Of a stretch of 34,758 bases of DNA, positions 1,818 through 34,758 are shown one piece after another. The notes under the pieces were generated by a model. That model had not been told where the DNA came from, searched no databases, and saw nothing but the letters and a program-made list of their open reading frames with translations. The stretch spans positions 1 through 34,758 of the IMG/VR virus record IMGVR_UViG_3300043395_000545. The stretch is one strand, 5' to 3'. The DNA comes from a virus. Position 1 is the stretch's first letter. Every line of letters begins with the position of its first letter. The translations under genes and the position numbers were made by a program.

Positions 1818-2838
1818 TGGACTAGAACAACTAGAACACGAATCCAATCCTGAAATTGCGGAGTTGCGCAAAGCATTACAAAGAGCGCAAAAAGATTTAC
1901 AGAAGGCTAAACAACGCACAGAAGAATTGGTTGAAGTAACAATTCAATCGTGTCATGACGCAATTTTGGCGCATGAAAAATTTCCAGAAGTAGATAAACC
2001 GCAAGTAACAAAAGGTAATAAAAAGAAACCTGAAGTCGCGCTATGGCATATGACGGATTGGCAAGGCGCAAAACAAACCACTTCTTACAATAGTAAGATT
2101 ATGGCAGAACGCGTACTTCAATTTGCCAAGACCGCAGTTCGCATCACGGATATACAGCGCGCAGACCACCCTGTCAATGATGTAACAATTATGTTTGGCG
2201 GCGATATGGTGGAAGGTCTATTCAACTTTCCTGCGCAAGCCTTTGAAATAGACGCGACACTCTTTGAACAATATGTCACAGTTAGCAGACTTTTGGTAGA
2301 AGTCGTGCGCTATGCTCTTGCCCACTACGAGAAAGTAACAGTAGTAGCGGAATGGGGTAACCATGGTCGTATTGGAAGCAAGCGAGATAATGTCCCACGC
2401 TCCGACAATTTTGACCGAATGTGTTACGAACTGGCACGACAATTATTGGCAGGAGAAAAACGGCTTACATGGCAGGAGTGTCCAGACGATATACAACGCG
2501 TACAAATCGGAAACTATAAAGCACTCCTTATACATGGTGACGAAGTTGGGCGGAATGGATTTGCAAGTCCGAGTGCAATCGTGCAACACGCGAACAGATG
2601 GCGAAGTGGCGCATACGATTGGGATTTCCGAGATGTCTATATTGGGCATTACCACACACACGCAGAATGGCCAATGGCAAATGGACAAGGAAGCGTCTAT
2701 CAAACAGGAAGCACAGAGTCGGATAATCGCTATGCTGGTGTCATGTTGGCAGCAAGCGCAACACCATCACAACGACTTCACTTCATTGACCCAACTAAGG
2801 GCAGAGTAACTGCCGCATACAAAGTGTGGTTGGACTAA
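1804..2838 (+). CDS. Calcineurin-like metallophosphoesterase
   Basis: 344 aa, GTG start inside the end of the preceding gene (SD-like GGAG about 10 nt upstream). The N-terminus (about 8-60) is a charged coiled coil. From about residue 78 the metal-binding motifs of the superfamily appear in order: D85 (HMTDWQG), GGD134, GNH186-187, H244 (LLIHGDE) and GHYH281-284. The intact set predicts a two-metal phosphodiesterase/nuclease acting in the cytoplasm. Similar phage genes are usually annotated as MRE11-like or metallophosphoesterase without known substrate. Its position between lysis and GP88 genes gives no further clue. Confidence 0.88.
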   Translation: MSLSDGLEQLEHESNPEIAELRKALQRAQKDLQKAKQRTEELVEVTIQSCHDAILAHEKFPEVDKPQVTKGNKKKPEVALWHMTDWQGAKQTTSYNSKIMAERVLQFAKTAVRITDIQRADHPVNDVTIMFGGDMVEGLFNFPAQAFEIDATLFEQYVTVSRLLVEVVRYALAHYEKVTVVAEWGNHGRIGSKRDNVPRSDNFDRMCYELARQLLAGEKRLTWQECPDDIQRVQIGNYKALLIHGDEVGRNGFASPSAIVQHANRWRSGAYDWDFRDVYIGHYHTHAEWPMANGQGSVYQTGSTESDNRYAGVMLAASATPSQRLHFIDPTKGRVTAAYKVWLD

Positions 2839-3835: not shown

Positions 3836-3868
3836 ACCCCTCACTTCGGTGGGGGGTTATTTTTTTTT
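3836..3868 (+). terminator. Rho-independent terminator with UUCG tetraloop
   Basis: A 9-bp stem ACCCCTCAC / GTGGGGGGT (one G-U pair) encloses a TTCG tetraloop (3845-3848) and is followed by a T-rich run at 3857-3868. It lies 15 bp after the DUF6378-like gene and ends the rightward late transcript. The T-run touches the stop codon of the convergent minus-strand gene. In the minus direction the hairpin lacks a good U-tail. Confidence 0.92.
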
Positions 3869-4079
3869 ACGCGTCTTCGTCCTCATCTTCATCATCACCA
3901 TAGTCAACCCAAGTAGAGGACATAATTTCTAATCCAGCCGCACTTGCTTGCGCTAAAGATGTAGCAAATAAAACCGCAGCGCGACTACACATATCGGTGA
4001 TTATGTCGGGATAGGAAGCGTCTTGCTCTATCTTGACATTTAATCCACCAAGATTTATCACGACACGGGCTAGGGGCAT
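3867..4079 (-). CDS. Small acidic-tailed protein of unknown function
   Basis: 70 aa. It has an amphipathic/hydrophobic body (MPLARVVINLGG, then a helix RAAVLFATSLAQASAAGLEI) and ends in a run of Asp/Glu (YGDDEDEDEDA). It is the only minus-strand frame without a gene opposite it, it ends exactly at the shared terminator, and it diverges from the ribozyme operon. No clear Shine-Dalgarno precedes the ATG, so expression could be weak or leaderless. The acidic tail would suit a DNA mimic or a partner of a basic protein, but no family is recognised. Confidence 0.5.
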   Translation of the reverse strand: MPLARVVINLGGLNVKIEQDASYPDIITDMCSRAAVLFATSLAQASAAGLEIMSSTWVDYGDDEDEDEDA

Positions 4080-4266
4080 GGCTCAAGGATACAACCACAC
4101 CCAGATTCCCTGAAGTCTGGTCGGCGTGTCTAGGGGCAGACTACACGGGGTATCTAGTCGGGTTGGTTGGTTTATATCGTCTAGGGGGTATGACCGCTTA
4201 GAACGGCTGCTACGCCGTCTAACGGGGGTATGGGGTTTTGAGGGGTCGGTCTAGGCATATATCTAG
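4070..4266. repeat. Clustered CTAGGGG-type repeats, possible operator or iteron array
   Basis: CTAGGGGCAT (4070-4079), CTAGGGGCAGA (4130-4140), CTAG (4154-4157), CTAGGGGGTATG (4181-4192), a variant TCTAACGGGGGTATG (4218-4232), CTAG (4251-4254) and CTAG (4263-4266) fall within 200 bp. CTAG is generally rare in bacterial and phage DNA, so the cluster is striking. Spacing is irregular. It could bind a regulator of the divergent transcripts or a replication protein; nothing in the window decides between these. Confidence 0.5.
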
Positions 4267-4569
4267 GAAAAAATAACGGTAGATATGTGCGCAAGTGTTA
4301 CACATACAGTCTAAGTATGTAATAATGGTTCCCATGATGATACGGCACACCGAAGGCGGTCACACCGCGCGCGGTCAATACTGTGTTTACTCATACGCAC
4401 TTTAACAATTACATAGCAGGATTTAGATAGTCTGTAACGCTTCCCCTAGCGTTATGTTGTACTTGATGGCAACGCCCGTTATCAAATAACTAATTACTTA
4501 TCGCCGTAAATCGGATGTAATAAGCGCACTGCCTATATGTAGTAGCAACTTTGACGACGAAATCATAGA
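4080..4569. other. Gene-free control region / long leader
   Basis: About 490 bp with no convincing gene between the minus-strand gene and the first ribozyme. It holds G-rich CTAG repeats up to 4266 and several potential hairpins. These include CCAGATT/AAGTCTGG (4101-4120), ACGGC/GCCGT (4203-4218), the perfect palindrome ACCGCGCGCGGT (4364-4375) and TAACGC/GCGTTA (4435-4454, loop TTCCCCTA). The divergent gene layout means promoters for both directions should lie here. A 26-codon frame at 4325-4405 has no ribosome-binding site and was not called. Confidence 0.6.
4298..4326 (+). promoter_or_regulatory. Candidate promoter of the ribozyme operon
   Basis: An AATAAT -10-like hexamer (4321-4326, five of six matches to TATAAT) lies 17 nt after a poor -35-like TTACAC (4298-4303). 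It lies about 240 nt before the first ribozyme in the only long gene-free stretch upstream of the operon. The -35 match is weak, so this is a tentative call. Confidence 0.3.
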
Positions 4570-4628
4570 GAACGAAACGCCTACTAAATGTTAGGCGTCT
4601 AGCGGTAAATGCCGCTACTGATGAGTTC
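4570..4628 (+). ncRNA. Type II hammerhead ribozyme 1
   Basis: Complete self-cleaving hammerhead core in the stem-II-open order. Stem II is GAAC (4570-4573) with GTTC (4625-4628). GAAA is at 4574-4577. Stem III is CGCCTA (4578-4583) with TAGGCG (4592-4597). The U16.1-C17 cleavage dinucleotide is at 4598-4599. Stem I is TAGCGG (4600-4605) with CCGCTA (4612-4617), loop TAAATG. CTGATGA is at 4618-4624. The invariant G10.1-C11.1 and C15.2-G16.2 pairs are present. Predicted cut is after C4599, leaving a 5'-OH RNA that begins with the stem I hairpin and carries the first small gene. Confidence 0.93.
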
Positions 4629-4648
4629 AATAATTGAAAGGGTAAATT

Positions 4649-4888
4649 ATGACAAAGTTGACAGTCGGCGATTTCATTAAATGGGCTGAGCCAAAACAAG
4701 TTGGCTCGCATGACAGTTGCGTTCAATGTGGACGCAAACTTGGTAAGAAACCTTATTTCGTAGAGGTTTCTATTAGCGGAGCAATTATGCTCAACGGCGT
4801 TGGTGTAGATGATGCGCCATCGCAAGGCTGCTGGGGTGTTGGCAGCGAATGCGCCAAAGCATTTGACCCAAAAGTTCTACTTAAATAA
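4649..4888 (+). CDS. Small zinc-finger-like protein, ribozyme cassette 1
   Basis: 79 aa, unknown function. A CVQCG knuckle near residue 24 (CVQCGRKLGKKPYFVEV) and two later Cys (GCWGVGSECAKAF) could bind one zinc ion. The motif CxxCGxxLG also occurs in the 54-aa protein at 5791, so the two may be distant paralogues. Start chosen by the cassette's standard ribosome-binding site GAAAGGGTAAATT before the ATG. It lies between hammerheads 1 and 2, and its stop codon is 2 nt before ribozyme 2. Predicted processed mRNA is about 319 nt (4600-4918). Confidence 0.85.
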   Translation: MTKLTVGDFIKWAEPKQVGSHDSCVQCGRKLGKKPYFVEVSISGAIMLNGVGVDDAPSQGCWGVGSECAKAFDPKVLLK

Positions 4889-4890
4889 CA

Positions 4891-4946
4891 GGACGAAACG
4901 CGGTAGCGATACCGCGTCTGCTGGTATCGCCAGCACTGATGAGTCC
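4891..4946 (+). ncRNA. Type II hammerhead ribozyme 2
   Basis: Stem II GGAC (4891-4894) with GTCC (4943-4946). GAAA 4895-4898. Stem III CGCGGTA (4899-4905) with TACCGCG (4910-4916), GCGA tetraloop. Cleavage dinucleotide TC 4917-4918. Stem I TGCTGG (4919-4924) with CCAGCA (4930-4935), loop TATCG. CTGATGA 4936-4942. All core positions are canonical; predicted cut after C4918. The upstream product would end in the GNRA-capped stem III hairpin with a 2',3'-cyclic phosphate. Confidence 0.94.
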
Positions 4947-4962
4947 AATGAAAGGGTAAAAA

Positions 4963-5172
4963 ATGACACTCAATAAAATTGACCGCGACTATTATGAGTA
5001 CCGTGGTGTCCGTATCAGTCGCACAAAAGGCGGTTGGACATATCGCACGGTTAACAAAAAACGCCACGACTGTGTGGTTCCTGCGACTTTGGAGTTTTTG
5101 ATGCGCAAGATTGATGCATCGCTAGATAAGGATTACATAACCGTTGAACGCGGTTGTCTTTATATTAACTAG
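4963..5172 (+). CDS. Small basic protein of unknown function, ribozyme cassette 2
   Basis: 69 aa, net basic, with YYEYRGVRISRTKGGWTYRT near the N-terminus suggesting a small beta-rich fold, followed by a helix (ATLEFLMRKIDASLD). No family recognised. The ATG follows AATGAAAGGGTAAAAA, the shared cassette ribosome-binding site. Its TAG stop (5170-5172) supplies the first base of ribozyme 3, so translation termination and ribozyme folding compete for the same RNA. Predicted processed mRNA is about 279 nt (4919-5197). Confidence 0.82.
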   Translation: MTLNKIDRDYYEYRGVRISRTKGGWTYRTVNKKRHDCVVPATLEFLMRKIDASLDKDYITVERGCLYIN

Positions 5173-5226
5173 GACGAAACCGCGCTACGGCGCGGTCTGT
5201 TGGTAAATGCCAACACTGATGAGTCC
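5172..5226 (+). ncRNA. Type II hammerhead ribozyme 3
   Basis: Stem II GGAC (5172-5175) with GTCC (5223-5226). GAAA 5176-5179. Stem III CCGCGC (5180-5185) with GCGCGG (5190-5195), UACG tetraloop. Cleavage dinucleotide TC 5196-5197. Stem I TGTTGG (5198-5203) with CCAACA (5210-5215), loop TAAATG. CTGATGA 5216-5222. Overlaps the upstream stop codon by one base. Predicted cut after C5197. Confidence 0.95.
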
Positions 5227-5250
5227 ATCAGCACTAACAAAGGGTAAATC

Positions 5251-5559
5251 ATGGGTGCAGTTATTACTAAGCCAGTAGTTGTAGAAGTTCCAACAGGTCG
5301 CGACATTATTCTTGTTGTTGAAGGCAAGCCTGTTGTTTATATTCGCCACAACGAAACACGCGAAGGCAAAGACCTTCTTGGCGCTTCATACGCTAAACAC
5401 GAATATGTCGGCATGGGTATCACAGTAAAAAATGATGACAATTACAACTATCAATTTGTTGGTGAATGTGCCAACACAATGGCGTTGGAAATTGCAGAAC
5501 AAACTATTGATGGTGTAGTTGATGGAATTTACAACCGCTACTACGCCAAGAAAAACTAG
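5251..5559 (+). CDS. Small protein of unknown function, ribozyme cassette 3
   Basis: 102 aa. It has a beta-rich N-terminal half (KPVVVEVPTGRDIILVVEG, then PVVYIRHNET) and a C-terminal helix (NTMALEIAEQTIDGVVDGIY). No cysteines except one (GECAN) and no recognised family. Start chosen by AAAGGGTAAATC directly before the ATG. Its TAG stop (5557-5559) overlaps the first base of ribozyme 4. Predicted processed mRNA is about 385 nt (5198-5582). Confidence 0.85.
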   Translation: MGAVITKPVVVEVPTGRDIILVVEGKPVVYIRHNETREGKDLLGASYAKHEYVGMGITVKNDDNYNYQFVGECANTMALEIAEQTIDGVVDGIYNRYYAKKN

Positions 5560-5610
5560 ACCGAAACCGCCTACGGGCGGTCTTGCCGTAACGCGGCAAC
5601 TGACGAGGTC
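5559..5610 (+). ncRNA. Type II hammerhead ribozyme 4
   Basis: Stem II GACC (5559-5562) with GGTC (5607-5610). GAAA 5563-5566. Stem III CCGCC (5567-5571) with GGCGG (5576-5580), UACG tetraloop. Cleavage dinucleotide TC 5581-5582. Stem I TTGCCG (5583-5588) with CGGCAA (5594-5599), loop TAACG. CTGACGA 5600-5606, where C at variable core position N7 is allowed. Predicted cut after C5582. Confidence 0.94.
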
Positions 5611-5629
5611 AGCAAACGAAAGGGTAATC

Positions 5630-5788
5630 ATGGAATACGCAGTATCTTTGACAGTAAACATCATAGTAAATGCTAAAAATGAAAAACAAGCAATTGACAA
5701 AGCAAAAGACATTATTGAAAGCATTAGCAATGCTTACGCTGTTGCTGTTAATAGCACGCAATTAAATGACTATATGGTGGAGGCATAA
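5630..5788 (+). CDS. Small protein of unknown function, ribozyme cassette 4a
   Basis: 52 aa: a beta strand (MEYAVSLTVNIIVNAKN), a helix (EKQAIDKAKDIIESIS) and a second strand (NAYAVAVNST), i.e. a small beta-alpha-beta domain. No family recognised. The frame is open further upstream to 5519, but that would run back through ribozyme 4 and into the preceding gene. The ATG at 5630 with AAAGGGTAATC before it is the evident start. It shares a predicted processed mRNA (5583-5981, about 399 nt) with the next gene. Confidence 0.82.
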   Translation: MEYAVSLTVNIIVNAKNEKQAIDKAKDIIESISNAYAVAVNSTQLNDYMVEA

Positions 5789-5790
5789 AC

Positions 5791-5955
5791 ATGATTTCAT
5801 GTCATATGTGCGGCAAACAACTTGGTGCTGGTGGCAAATGGTTATGGTTCCAGTATGACAATGGCGAGAAGGTGCGCGCATTATGTTGTATCGGCTGCCA
5901 ATTCAAGCACGATGCGCTGACAGATGCAGACGGCAATCGTGTACCAAATGCGTAA
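5791..5955 (+). CDS. 54-aa zinc-ribbon protein, ribozyme cassette 4b
   Basis: Cys-rich: SCHMCGKQLG near the start and LCCIGCQFKH near residue 31-40 give two CxxC-type knuckles expected to hold one zinc. Good ribosome-binding site TGGAGGCATAAAC (GGAGG 5778-5782) inside the end of the preceding gene, with a 2-nt gap between the genes. The stop (5953-5955) is immediately followed by the first base of ribozyme 5. CxxCGKxLG resembles the cassette 1 protein. Function unknown; short zinc ribbons of this kind may bind host proteins or nucleic acid. Confidence 0.8.
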   Translation: MISCHMCGKQLGAGGKWLWFQYDNGEKVRALCCIGCQFKHDALTDADGNRVPNA

Positions 5956-6010
5956 AGGCGAAACCCTGCTACGGCAGGGTCTAGTGCTAAATGGCACTAC
6001 TGACGAGCCT
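5956..6010 (+). ncRNA. Type II hammerhead ribozyme 5
   Basis: Stem II AGGC (5956-5959) with GCCT (6007-6010). GAAA 5960-5963. Stem III CCCTGC (5964-5969) with GCAGGG (5974-5979), UACG tetraloop. Cleavage dinucleotide TC 5980-5981. Stem I TAGTGC (5982-5987) with GCACTA (5994-5999), loop TAAATG. CTGACGA 6000-6006. It begins on the base after the upstream stop codon. Predicted cut after C5981 releases the DUF932 mRNA. Confidence 0.95.
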
Positions 6011-6038
6011 ATCGTTAGAAAAATTTGAAAGGGTAATC

Positions 6039-7033: not shown

Positions 7034-7076
7034 GTAGCAACCCCCGATGGAAACGCTGTCGGGGGTAGTTACTTTT
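7034..7076 (+). terminator. Hairpin terminator after the ribozyme operon
   Basis: Outer stem GTAGC (7034-7038) with GTTAC (7068-7072), an A/A mismatch, then an 8-bp stem ACCCCCGA (7040-7047) with TCGGGGGT (7059-7066) around an 11-nt loop, followed by TTTT (7073-7076). Strong stem but short U-tail, so termination may be partial. It closes the DUF932 transcript. Confidence 0.75.
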
Positions 7077-7119
7077 ACCGTGTATGACTGTAAAATATCA
7101 ACCAAACGAAAGGGTAATC

Positions 7120-7347
7120 ATGTTGTATCCAGTTTTTCTATTTGTTATCGCAGGTTTATTTGGCACATTACTGGCGTTGCGCTTAATGGCGATTGACGCA
7201 CAAGAACAACGCAGTTCATTAACTCGCAGAGGCAGAATTGTTGTTGGAATATCTTGGGGCATTGTTATTGCGCTGATTGTCGTAGTTATCAATGGCTCAT
7301 GGTGGAATTGTGACACCGCAACTTGTTCATTTGTGTGGGGTTACTAA
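7120..7347 (+). CDS. Small two-span membrane protein
   Basis: 75 aa with two membrane segments (about 2-20, YPVFLFVIAGLFGTLLALRL, and about 44-62, GISWGIVIALIVVVINGS) joined by a basic loop (EQRSSLTRRGR). Two Cys follow in the C-terminal tail (NCDTATC). The ATG at 7120 is preferred over 7084 because it has the AAAGGGTAATC ribosome-binding site used across the ribozyme cassettes, though no ribozyme precedes it. Function unknown; a superinfection-exclusion or host-membrane role is only a guess. Confidence 0.75.
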   Translation: MLYPVFLFVIAGLFGTLLALRLMAIDAQEQRSSLTRRGRIVVGISWGIVIALIVVVINGSWWNCDTATCSFVWGY

Positions 7348-32272: not shown

Positions 32273-32681
32273 AAAAGGCGTTAATACCTTTACTGCAAAC
32301 TTAGATTCTGCTGCTCGTATGGCGCGTGATGAAATGATGGCTGCGCTCATTCAGTTATCAAAAGAACAAATTCAAGGCGCACGACCATATACAAAAGGTC
32401 CTCGTGGTGGTCGCATATATCAAAAAGCAGAACCCGGTAAACCACCAATGAATCGCACAGGTAATTTGCGGCGTTCTATCCGTGGCGAAAAGGCTTCCGC
32501 TGGTTTTGGCAATTATGTTGCCATTGTAGGTCCTACAATAGAATACGGTAGGCGCGTAGAATTAGGTGGCGGCAATTGGCCAAGCGGTGTTCGTTTCCCA
32601 TATATGGAACCTGCTTACGCTCAATTCCGCTCAGTAGTCGTACCACAAATAACTGCTAAATACTTTAGGAGGTTCCGATAA
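32244..32681 (+). CDS. HK97 gp10-like neck/tail protein
   Basis: 145 aa. AARMARDEMMAALIQLSKEQ, then ARPYTKGPRGGRIYQKAEPG with KPPMNRTGNLRRSIRGE and GPTIEYGRRVELGG match the HK97-gp10 family, in which the TGNLRxS box is characteristic. It normally sits at the neck, so its place after the chaperone is a little unusual. GTG start at 32244 overlaps the chaperone by 29 bp; an ATG at 32319 is possible but would lose part of the family domain. Confidence 0.78.
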   Translation: MLNNNLRLVRKGVNTFTANLDSAARMARDEMMAALIQLSKEQIQGARPYTKGPRGGRIYQKAEPGKPPMNRTGNLRRSIRGEKASAGFGNYVAIVGPTIEYGRRVELGGGNWPSGVRFPYMEPAYAQFRSVVVPQITAKYFRRFR

Positions 32682-34758
32682 TGGGCGGATTTTTACCACC
32701 TGTAGTATTTACAATTACGGCTAACGCTACACAAGCCATGGCAACTTTCAAAGGTGTCAATACGCAGTTGAAAGTAATGGACGCGCAAGCAAAGAAAACT
32801 AGCGCATCAATGTTGGCATTGAACAAGTCGCTGCTTCTTGCTACAGCAGCAGCCAAAGCATTTGCTACTGTGCTAGTTGGTTTTGCAGCATACGGCGTCA
32901 AAGAGATTATGCAGTTGGAACAGGCATATACTCGTCTTGGTCAAACAATGTCGGCTGTTGGTGTATCAACAGAAGCCAACCGCCAGCGCCTTGCTGATGT
33001 AGCACAAGGTATGGAACAACTTGGTTTTGATGCTGCTACTGCTTCTGATGCCCTTTCCATTTTGTTACAAACCACAAAGAGTGTTGAAACTAGCGAGAAA
33101 TTATTAGCCACTGCTGCTGACCTTGCTCGCGCTCGCCAGATGGATTTGGCAACTGCCGCACGATTATTGTCACGCGCCCAAGCAGGTAATACTCGTATCT
33201 TTTCTATGTTTGGTATCCAACTGGATAAGAATAAAGACAAAGCCACCGCCACCAAAGAAGCGATGGAAAAACTATCGCAGGTTATTGGCGGTCAAGCAGA
33301 GGCATATACAAAAACTTTTGCAGGACAATTAGCAGTTCTTGGCAAACAAATTGAGAATGTTGCTGAAGGTATAGGCGCGGCACTACTGCCATATCTGATG
33401 AAATTCTTAACAATAATTCAGCGTCTTGCTAAATTCCTTAATGAACATCGCGAAATACTTGCTGGTATTGCAGCAGTTATTACGACAGTTCTTATCGTAG
33501 CGATAGTCAATCTAACAAAAAGATTATACGGATTAGCCGCAGCGTGGGCTGCTGCGAATTGGCCAATTCTTGCTGTGGTTGCAGCCGTAGTTGGTGCTGC
33601 TGCTGCGTTTGTTCATTTCTGGAACAAATCCGAAGGTTTCCGCAAAACAATTATCAATATTGGTAAATTGTTATTGGAATTTGCTGAAACTGTTGTTATG
33701 GCATTTCAACTTGCGCTTAATGTCATTTTGTTGCTCATACGCGGTACTGCTAATGCTCAAATAGCGCTTGGTAAACTTTTCAACAATGACGAAATGGTTC
33801 GGCGCGGTAAAGCCACTTTGGATTGGATTGATGCAACTAATAAGAGTATTGAAGATTTTGGTAAATCAATTCAGAAAGCGCAAGGCAATTTAGATAAATT
33901 CCAATCAACAAAAATAGATTTATCAAAATTTAAGTTACCATCATTGCAGATTGGTGATTTTGGTAATCAAAATGTAACGCCTAGCGACCCAACAGGTTTG
34001 GCTGCGGATATAAAAAAGTCATTAGACCAAGCCAAACAGTATATCAAGGATTTTAATACTGATATTAGTACAGAGTTTCAAGGTCTTGGCGCCATGTGGA
34101 AGAATATTGTTGGCAAAGATATTAACAAAGCCGTAGAAGATATCCTTACTAATCCTGTTGATGAGTTAATACTTAAAGCACAAGACGCTGTTAATGCATA
34201 TCAATCTGCATCAAATCAATATAATGGCGCACTTGCTACTTTAACTAAAGCGCAAAAAGACTACGAATTGGCTGTGGCTAGCGGTAACGAAAAAGCAATA
34301 ATGGCTGCCGAAAGTACCATGAAGCGAGCCGAAGATACCGTCAAGGCTATCAACGATGGTATGCGTGATGCGTTACAAGATATTGGACAATTACAAAAAG
34401 ATATGATTCGCGCTATTGCTGACTCATATAAGGAAATTGGAAAACTAGAAGAAGAACGCACAAAAATTTTGGTTGAAGCGCAAAAAGAACGCGCCGATTT
34501 GGAAAAACAATATAATGTAGATGTTGCCAAAATTCGTCAACAATATGACAAAGATGTTCTTAATGCGCAGGAAGCAGCAGCCAAACGCAGCGCGCAAATC
34601 GTAAAACAATCGGTTGACCAATTACGCGGCGCATTTAGAAGTGCTACCTATCGCACAGTCGGCGATATTTTCTCAGCACTGACATTTGAAGGTCGCTATA
34701 TGAAAGGCGGAACAACCGAGAAAATTCTTGCTGCTCTTGGGTTACAAGCAAAGAAAGC
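32681..34758 (+). CDS. Tape measure protein, 3'-partial
   Basis: At least 692 aa, cut by the window edge with no stop. Strong AGGAGG ribosome-binding site and TAATG overlap with the preceding gene. N-terminal helical region (NATQAMATFKGVNTQLKVMD), the LEQAYTRLGQTMSAVGVST and LLSRAQAGNTRIFSMFGIQL blocks typical of tape measures, a hydrophobic segment near residues 260-312 (GIAAVITTVLIVAIV; PILAVVAAVVGAAAAFVH) and a long C-terminal coiled coil (EIGKLEEERTKILVEAQKER). It sets tail length and enters the host envelope. Confidence 0.92.
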   Translation, partial: MGGFLPPVVFTITANATQAMATFKGVNTQLKVMDAQAKKTSASMLALNKSLLLATAAAKAFATVLVGFAAYGVKEIMQLEQAYTRLGQTMSAVGVSTEANRQRLADVAQGMEQLGFDAATASDALSILLQTTKSVETSEKLLATAADLARARQMDLATAARLLSRAQAGNTRIFSMFGIQLDKNKDKATATKEAMEKLSQVIGGQAEAYTKTFAGQLAVLGKQIENVAEGIGAALLPYLMKFLTIIQRLAKFLNEHREILAGIAAVITTVLIVAIVNLTKRLYGLAAAWAAANWPILAVVAAVVGAAAAFVHFWNKSEGFRKTIINIGKLLLEFAETVVMAFQLALNVILLLIRGTANAQIALGKLFNNDEMVRRGKATLDWIDATNKSIEDFGKSIQKAQGNLDKFQSTKIDLSKFKLPSLQIGDFGNQNVTPSDPTGLAADIKKSLDQAKQYIKDFNTDISTEFQGLGAMWKNIVGKDINKAVEDILTNPVDELILKAQDAVNAYQSASNQYNGALATLTKAQKDYELAVASGNEKAIMAAESTMKRAEDTVKAINDGMRDALQDIGQLQKDMIRAIADSYKEIGKLEEERTKILVEAQKERADLEKQYNVDVAKIRQQYDKDVLNAQEAAAKRSAQIVKQSVDQLRGAFRSATYRTVGDIFSALTFEGRYMKGGTTEKILAALGLQAKK

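Follow-up and report, generated by a model that had tools for sequence, protein, structure and literature searches.

The window analysed here, a stretch of 34,758 nucleotides (nt) of viral DNA (positions 1 to 34,758 of IMG/VR record IMGVR_UViG_3300043395_000545), carries five type II hammerhead ribozymes, R1 to R5, which form an ordered series along one phage operon, one before each gene or pair of genes, as an initial annotation made from the sequence had described. The order is R1, gene 1, R2, gene 2, R3, gene 3, R4, genes 4 and 5, R5 and a DUF932 gene, so that genes 4 and 5 share one predicted cleavage unit. Small open reading frames (ORFs) were called without a gene finder, and the bit scores listed here are those of a covariance model of our own, described below.

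4570 to 4628, + strand: R1, type II hammerhead; predicted cut after C4599; 60.7 bits, E 8e-19
4649 to 4888, + strand: gene 1, 79 amino acids (aa); no family match
4891 to 4946, + strand: R2, type II hammerhead; predicted cut after C4918; 63.3 bits
4963 to 5172, + strand: gene 2, 69 aa; no family match
5172 to 5226, + strand: R3, type II hammerhead; predicted cut after C5197; 65.3 bits, E 2e-20
5251 to 5559, + strand: gene 3, 102 aa; no family match; a relative in locus L019 is 41% identical
5559 to 5610, + strand: R4, type II hammerhead (CUGACGA); predicted cut after C5582; 61.4 bits
5630 to 5788, + strand: gene 4, 52 aa; relatives in loci L019 and L031, 47% identity
5791 to 5955, + strand: gene 5, 54 aa; weak zinc-ribbon/TRASH-like match, E 0.0018, below the Pfam cut-off
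5956 to 6010, + strand: R5, type II hammerhead (CUGACGA); predicted cut after C5981; 55.9 bits
6039 to 7025, + strand: DUF932 protein gene, 328 aa; Pfam PF06067, E 4e-65; PHROG 1221

We confirmed that the five elements are type II hammerhead ribozymes. Direct reading and a structure-based finder both recovered five complete cores at the positions first annotated, all on the plus strand, with GAAA, UH at the cut and CUGANGA in type II order, that is, with stem II open. The pairing was also as described, stem III having 5-7 bp, stem I 7 bp with a U-G closing pair and stem II 4 bp, and on re-reading the G10.1-C11.1, C15.2-G16.2 and U1.1-A2.1 positions were canonical in all five copies. Loop I, after the U-G closing pair, is only 3-4 nt long, which places the copies in what we call the short-loop subtype. 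Run over both strands of the window, the finder returned no minus-strand core, no type I or III hammerhead and no further type II copy; the chance expectation, from 100 first-order Markov samples of the window, was zero cores, and when the whole record was scanned with a core pattern there were five forward matches, no reverse match and none with a reversed-pattern control. Recomputing the predicted cuts, after 4599, 4918, 5197, 5582 and 5981, reproduced the fragment lengths of 319, 279, 385 and 399 nt.

The initial annotation had also expected five high-scoring matches to Rfam, and this did not hold: at the gathering score Rfam (release 15) reported none. Below that threshold, which is 37 bits, RF02276 (Hammerhead_II) matched four of the five copies in a search of 2.8 kb, with scores of 29.9-33.6 bits (E ≤0.0024), and R1 was absent from these matches. 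The gathering score is a curation threshold and not a defining property of hammerheads. Because Rfam reported none at gathering and four below it, we built our own covariance model from 42 copies, all from other phages and none from the window; it found the five window copies at 55.9-65.3 bits, with E-values of 2e-20 to 3.6e-17, the next match having E 0.024. Together, the sub-threshold matches and this model rule out the reading of the Rfam gathering result as absence of a ribozyme. RF02276 has the same permutation, core and cleavage triplet as the window copies, but its centre lies in hammerheads whose stem II has two pairs and whose tail pairs with loop I according to the literature, whereas the window copies have a 4-bp stem II, the short loop I and, by inspection, no evident pseudoknot between loop I and the tail. 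That pseudoknot was found in 42 of 65 copies with a loop I of at least 7 nt (21 expected); as a tertiary contact of the short-loop copies it was rejected, being at chance (32 against 26). In 13 contigs where the finder gives 61 copies, 59 of them short-loop, Rfam at gathering made three matches. The short-loop subtype, newly described here, thus lies mostly under the Rfam cut-off, and most of its members are overlooked by standard annotation.

The sequences point to selection on the RNA structure. In 32 array-bearing loci our model made 208 matches at E ≤0.001. Because the IMG/VR pattern scans demanded the core, core conservation is to be judged from these model matches: the catalytic core is intact in 149 of 150 aligned, with stem positions around 40-70% conserved, and although a covariance model favours the core too, a single core change costs few of the 40-68 bits. 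In the alignment of 42 sequences 98.5% of cells are paired, a figure inflated by the choice of sequences for their pairing, an inflation that does not extend to the variety of compensating pairs. The covariation score was 0.842, against 0.186 in shuffled alignments and at most 0.133 with slid partners, and double-sided changes numbered 225 against 66 in shuffles; the count of pairs showing any double-sided change was not above shuffles. The window copies fit this covarying three-stem model.

The position of the ribozymes relative to the genes is equally regular. Stop codons abut or overlap stem II, an arrangement newly described here. Gene 1 ends with a TAA at 4888, two bases before R2; G5172 is common to the TAG stop of gene 2 and stem II of R3; G5559 is shared by the TAG stop of gene 3 and R4; and the TAA of gene 5 ends at 5955, directly abutting R5. 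Among 542 distinct copies listed, the stop of an ORF of at least 60 aa ends from -6 to +4 nt from the ribozyme in 286, with peaks at 0 (n=60) and at +1 (n=84), where the final stop base is the first base of stem II. In a non-redundant set around 54% have a stop within ±3 nt, compared with 2.5% of random positions. Start codons lie mostly 14-30 nt 3' of the ribozyme. In a check of a role on the 5' side only against one on the 3' side only, first and last array members alike were found mostly between genes, which favours neither role. No locus among those listed carries hammerheads on both strands.

Pattern scans of IMG/VR yielded at least 519 distinct type II hammerheads in at least 301 loci, with at least 11 in one locus. 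Within a whole record they are concentrated in a single region; one 45 kb contig, for example, has 12 in 7.4 kb. Among the matches listed, which are from uncultured phages, the largest arrays of the short-loop subtype have 11 to 12 members. About 30 related contigs share a common layout, in which small, mostly unrelated accessory genes punctuated by ribozymes stand beside conserved exonuclease/DUF6378 and DUF932 genes, the DUF932 gene being the conserved anchor 3' of the array. Across these contigs the ribozymes stay alike while the intervening genes are replaced, which is new here. R2 (window 4890-4947) is 93% identical to its counterpart in L031, in an island of similarity bounded by the ribozyme borders and flanked by different genes, and most of R5 (window 5959-6007) shares 96% identity with a ribozyme of locus L016 that precedes a different gene. 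That ribozymes persist intact as punctuation amid gene exchange argues for a real role in the expression of small accessory genes.

A DNA search among sequenced phages found no close relative of the array. Scans of bacterial genomes found no copy of the form with a UAAAUG loop and 26 of the GGAC/GTCC form. One three-hammerhead array is identical in DNA between L309 and L310 (100% over 6654 bp) and 99.9% identical over 3106 bp in L328; the assemblies concerned are of Phycicoccus jejuensis, Streptomyces iakyrus and an Eggerthellaceae metagenome-assembled genome, and such identity would indicate one phage or a sequencing contaminant, not three hosts.

About a quarter of the short-loop subtype, including R3 to R5, has a 3' tail that is complementary to the catalytic strand and covaries with it, a feature also new here. 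In the window the tails give the following predicted hairpins.

5216 to 5231, + strand: R3 anti-core hairpin, CUGAUG (catalytic strand) with CAUCAG (tail); predicted 3.7 kcal/mol better than the ribozyme secondary (2D) fold
5600 to 5612, + strand: R4 anti-core hairpin, CUGAC with GUCAG (overlaps stem II); predicted 1.4 kcal/mol better
6000 to 6018, + strand: R5 anti-core hairpin, CUGACGA with UCGUUAG; predicted 5.5 kcal/mol better than the ribozyme 2D fold

These energies are nearest-neighbour values that ignore tertiary contacts. In the 5' product of R3-R5 the anti-core hairpin is predicted with P 0.94-1.00 (1.00 for R4). The hairpin begins at the first nucleotide past stem I and cannot coexist with the active fold. 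Pairing of at least 5 bp between tail and core occurs in 84 of 355 short-loop copies; shuffling the tails lowers the count to 17, and exchanging them among ribozymes lowers it to 63 (maximum 73 of 200). No such excess is seen in long-loop copies. The variable core base N7 and the facing tail base form T-A in 42 copies, C-G in 24, T.G in seven and C/A in three (Fisher p 1e-10; all p-values are approximate, redundancy having been cut by identity thresholds without a tree). A double change is seen directly in the R5 counterparts of L026 and L167, which have CUGAUGA with CAUCAG in place of CUGACGA with UCGUUAG. In a fresh test on newly fetched contigs, with N7 (T/C) and the tail base (A/G) both left free, the GTCC class gave 20 T-A, seven C-G, two T.G and no C/A (p 2.3e-5), and the GCCT class, a small set, went in the same direction with 4, 2, 1 and 0 (p 0.14). 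This agreement across stem II classes argues against a single inherited change. We rejected the idea that the tail is part of a DNA operator, which leaves unexplained why the tail base tracks N7 across stem II sequences. The covarying, core-masking element offers a specific, mutable handle on mechanism. In copies with stem II GTTC, AG comes next in 29 of 46, giving UCAG over the stem II border and a 4-bp anti-core pairing in which N7 cannot covary.

Taken together, it is fairly likely that the array consists of active hammerheads that punctuate one operon and process its transcript as it is made, the tail then acting as a lock. As the polymerase leaves each ribozyme, stem II would close, the core would form and the RNA would cut itself after UC, so that each gene, or the gene 4/5 pair, would become a separate mRNA. 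Such an mRNA would end with the hairpin of stem III, whose terminal UC would carry a cyclic phosphate, 23-30 nt past the stop codon. It would begin with a 5'-OH at the foot of the hairpin of stem I, 44-57 nt ahead of the start codon. Since the first strand of stem II, stem III and stem I are made first, the ribozyme would be complete before the tail; in R3 to R5 the later-transcribed tail might then pair with the CUGANGA strand, stack on stem I and lock the core open. Such a lock would block re-pairing and religation, making processing one-way and releasing the products, and would leave two adjacent hairpins behind the 5'-OH. From general knowledge of bacterial RNA decay we infer that hairpin and 5'-OH ends would stabilise the mRNAs. 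Uniform protected ends and independent expression could therefore make genes replaceable without disturbing their neighbours. The expectation in the initial annotation that the transcript is cut into gene-sized RNAs would seem right, and comparable clusters have been found to cleave (Perreault et al., 2011; PMC3088659).

Several observations weigh against this co-transcriptional processing followed by locking. R1 has no gene directly upstream, so gene separation cannot be its whole role, and neither R1 nor R2 shows a clear tail lock. Much of the core conservation in the finder set follows from how that set was constructed. For the DUF932 relatives in the cultured actinophages Mufasa8, Clawz and Dropshot, 13-20 kb were examined and contained no hammerheads, so the DUF932 gene does not require the ribozymes. 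Finally, nearest-neighbour folding prefers the locked form even before cleavage (R3 -3.7, R4 -1.4 and R5 -5.5 kcal/mol), and the tail could therefore keep part of the RNA uncut.

This last point leads to the alternative that survives best, a conditional switch. Here the tail would serve as an attenuator, with the anti-core fold as the default and cutting only in a kinetic window or upon a ribosome event. A ribosome at the upstream stop would block stem II and a 30S subunit at the downstream start could melt the tail. Before cleavage, R3-R5 and most copies with a tail are indeed predicted to have the anti-core fold as their ground state; in the latter the ribozyme fold lies a median of 4.7 kcal/mol above the minimum. 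The stop codons are located on stem II. Yet the tail is absent from many array members, so that a general switch is unneeded, the stop overlap is simply explained by compact phage genomes, and a link between stop overlap and tail was rejected (56/87 with a tail against 121/226 without, p 0.10, not significant). We regard such a switch as unlikely, if a serious candidate, and it is just as doubtful that translation or transcription speed sets the extent of transcript cutting, each joint being cut conditionally. If a switch did operate, tail-bearing short-loop hammerheads would be natural RNA switches.

The replacement of genes between like ribozymes also fits a model in which the ribozyme repeats are kept as cassette borders for gene swapping by RecT-like annealing and exonuclease proteins, cleavage being secondary or irrelevant. 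The phage encodes RecT-like and RecE-like proteins, and islands of similarity stop at ribozyme borders. Recombination at ribozymes would be expected to leave hybrids of the kind seen in L031 (around 2557-2642, minus strand), where an R2-like body is joined to the tail and start region of window R3, as if neighbouring ribozymes had recombined and deleted the gene between them. However, compensated divergence of the stems and a fixed RNA core serve RNA structure and not DNA homology, and the longest shared stretches are short, so that we hold this to be improbable as the reason why the ribozymes are kept.

Hammerheads can ligate, and two successive cuts followed by ligation could give circular or spliced RNAs, a possibility raised by Perreault et al. 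(2011; PMC3088659), who looked and detected neither product; as the core-masking, covarying tail works against ligation as well, we consider this outcome very improbable here. Chance or decayed, inactive motifs, for which the lack of an Rfam match at the gathering score could be cited, are hardly credible given E ≤4e-17 with an independent model, zero expected by chance and essentially no core-damaged copies.

The annotators knew of no earlier description of an ordered series, and here they were mistaken: the type II assignment, the order and the expected cutting of the operon stand, and the novelty of the series does not. Perreault et al. (2011; PMC3088659) reported hammerhead clusters that flank single genes or short blocks in the prophages of Clostridium scindens, Azorhizobium caulinodans and Agrobacterium tumefaciens. 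They showed that three arrangements cleave in vitro and that one does so in E. coli, and suggested that the transcripts are processed into mRNAs of one gene each. They also described the pseudoknot between loop I and the 3' tail in about 40% of hammerheads, common but not universal, and hammerheads by ardA antirestriction genes. The arrangement itself is therefore of a kind known since 2011. Those clusters, like the window, have several same-strand hammerheads around single genes or short blocks in phage-derived DNA; in contrast to them, all hammerheads here are type II and short-loop, with one per gene or pair, stops on stem II and the tail in three of five. Bacterial self-cleaving ribozymes were more recently found enriched near one another and near Mu-like phage genes, for a reason stated to be unknown (PMC10085705, 2023); ribozyme clustering and phage context are shared with the window, but that association is statistical across classes, with no ordered series or tail. 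The stop overlap, the gene replacement, the core-complementary tail and the sub-Rfam subtype were missed in the initial annotation. In a search of openly available main texts we found neither the core-complementary tail nor the stop overlap nor the short-loop subtype described.

Arrays also occur in two named phages of Streptomyces.

NC_019414, 41465 to 51071: Streptomyces phage R4 (locus L331)
MH669004: Streptomyces phage Hank144 (locus L332)

Each has at least nine type II hammerheads, on the gene strand, in a single region of small accessory genes, among them one for an OCR-like antirestriction protein. Unlike the window copies, they are mostly of the pseudoknot/long-loop subtype and detectable by Rfam (nine matches in the phage R4 stretch). 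Since both phages grow on ordinary laboratory strains, they make the question of role directly testable. Several of the phage R4 hammerheads have an extra U ahead of stem II (CUGACGAUG...).

The array operon is bounded by the following predicted elements.

3836 to 3857, + strand: intrinsic-terminator-like hairpin, 9-bp stem then TATTTTTTTT; closes the preceding exonuclease/GP88/DUF6378 operon
4297 to 4326, + strand: pair of promoter-like hexamers; the array operon may start here
7040 to 7066, + strand: intrinsic-terminator-like hairpin, 11-bp stem then AGTTACTTTT; closes the array operon

Terminator-like hairpins on both flanks would mark a single transcription unit of about 4.3-7.07 kb. Assignment of the promoter by scan was rejected, promoter-like sites being no more numerous than expected by chance. 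Some 700 bp without a clear gene (3860-4570) lie ahead of R1, of which the part from 4305 is 74% conserved in L019 and L031; this is probably promoter or leader sequence. Searches of Pfam and PHROGs with genes 1-4 gave no family match, and PADLOC returned nothing usable for the cassette proteins. Upstream of the array lie exonuclease-like, GP88 and DUF6378 genes and downstream RecT-like, RecE-like and virion genes. The Shine-Dalgarno sequence GAAAGGG and the DUF932 relatives, which are mainly in actinophages, suggest an actinobacterial host. A long tape-measure-like open frame (32681-34758) runs past the end of the window, and the record is therefore probably an incomplete genome. Just beyond the terminator, at 7103-7122, the next gene opens with the CAAACGAAAGGGTAATCATG leader of gene 4, here ribozyme-free (repeat family D3).

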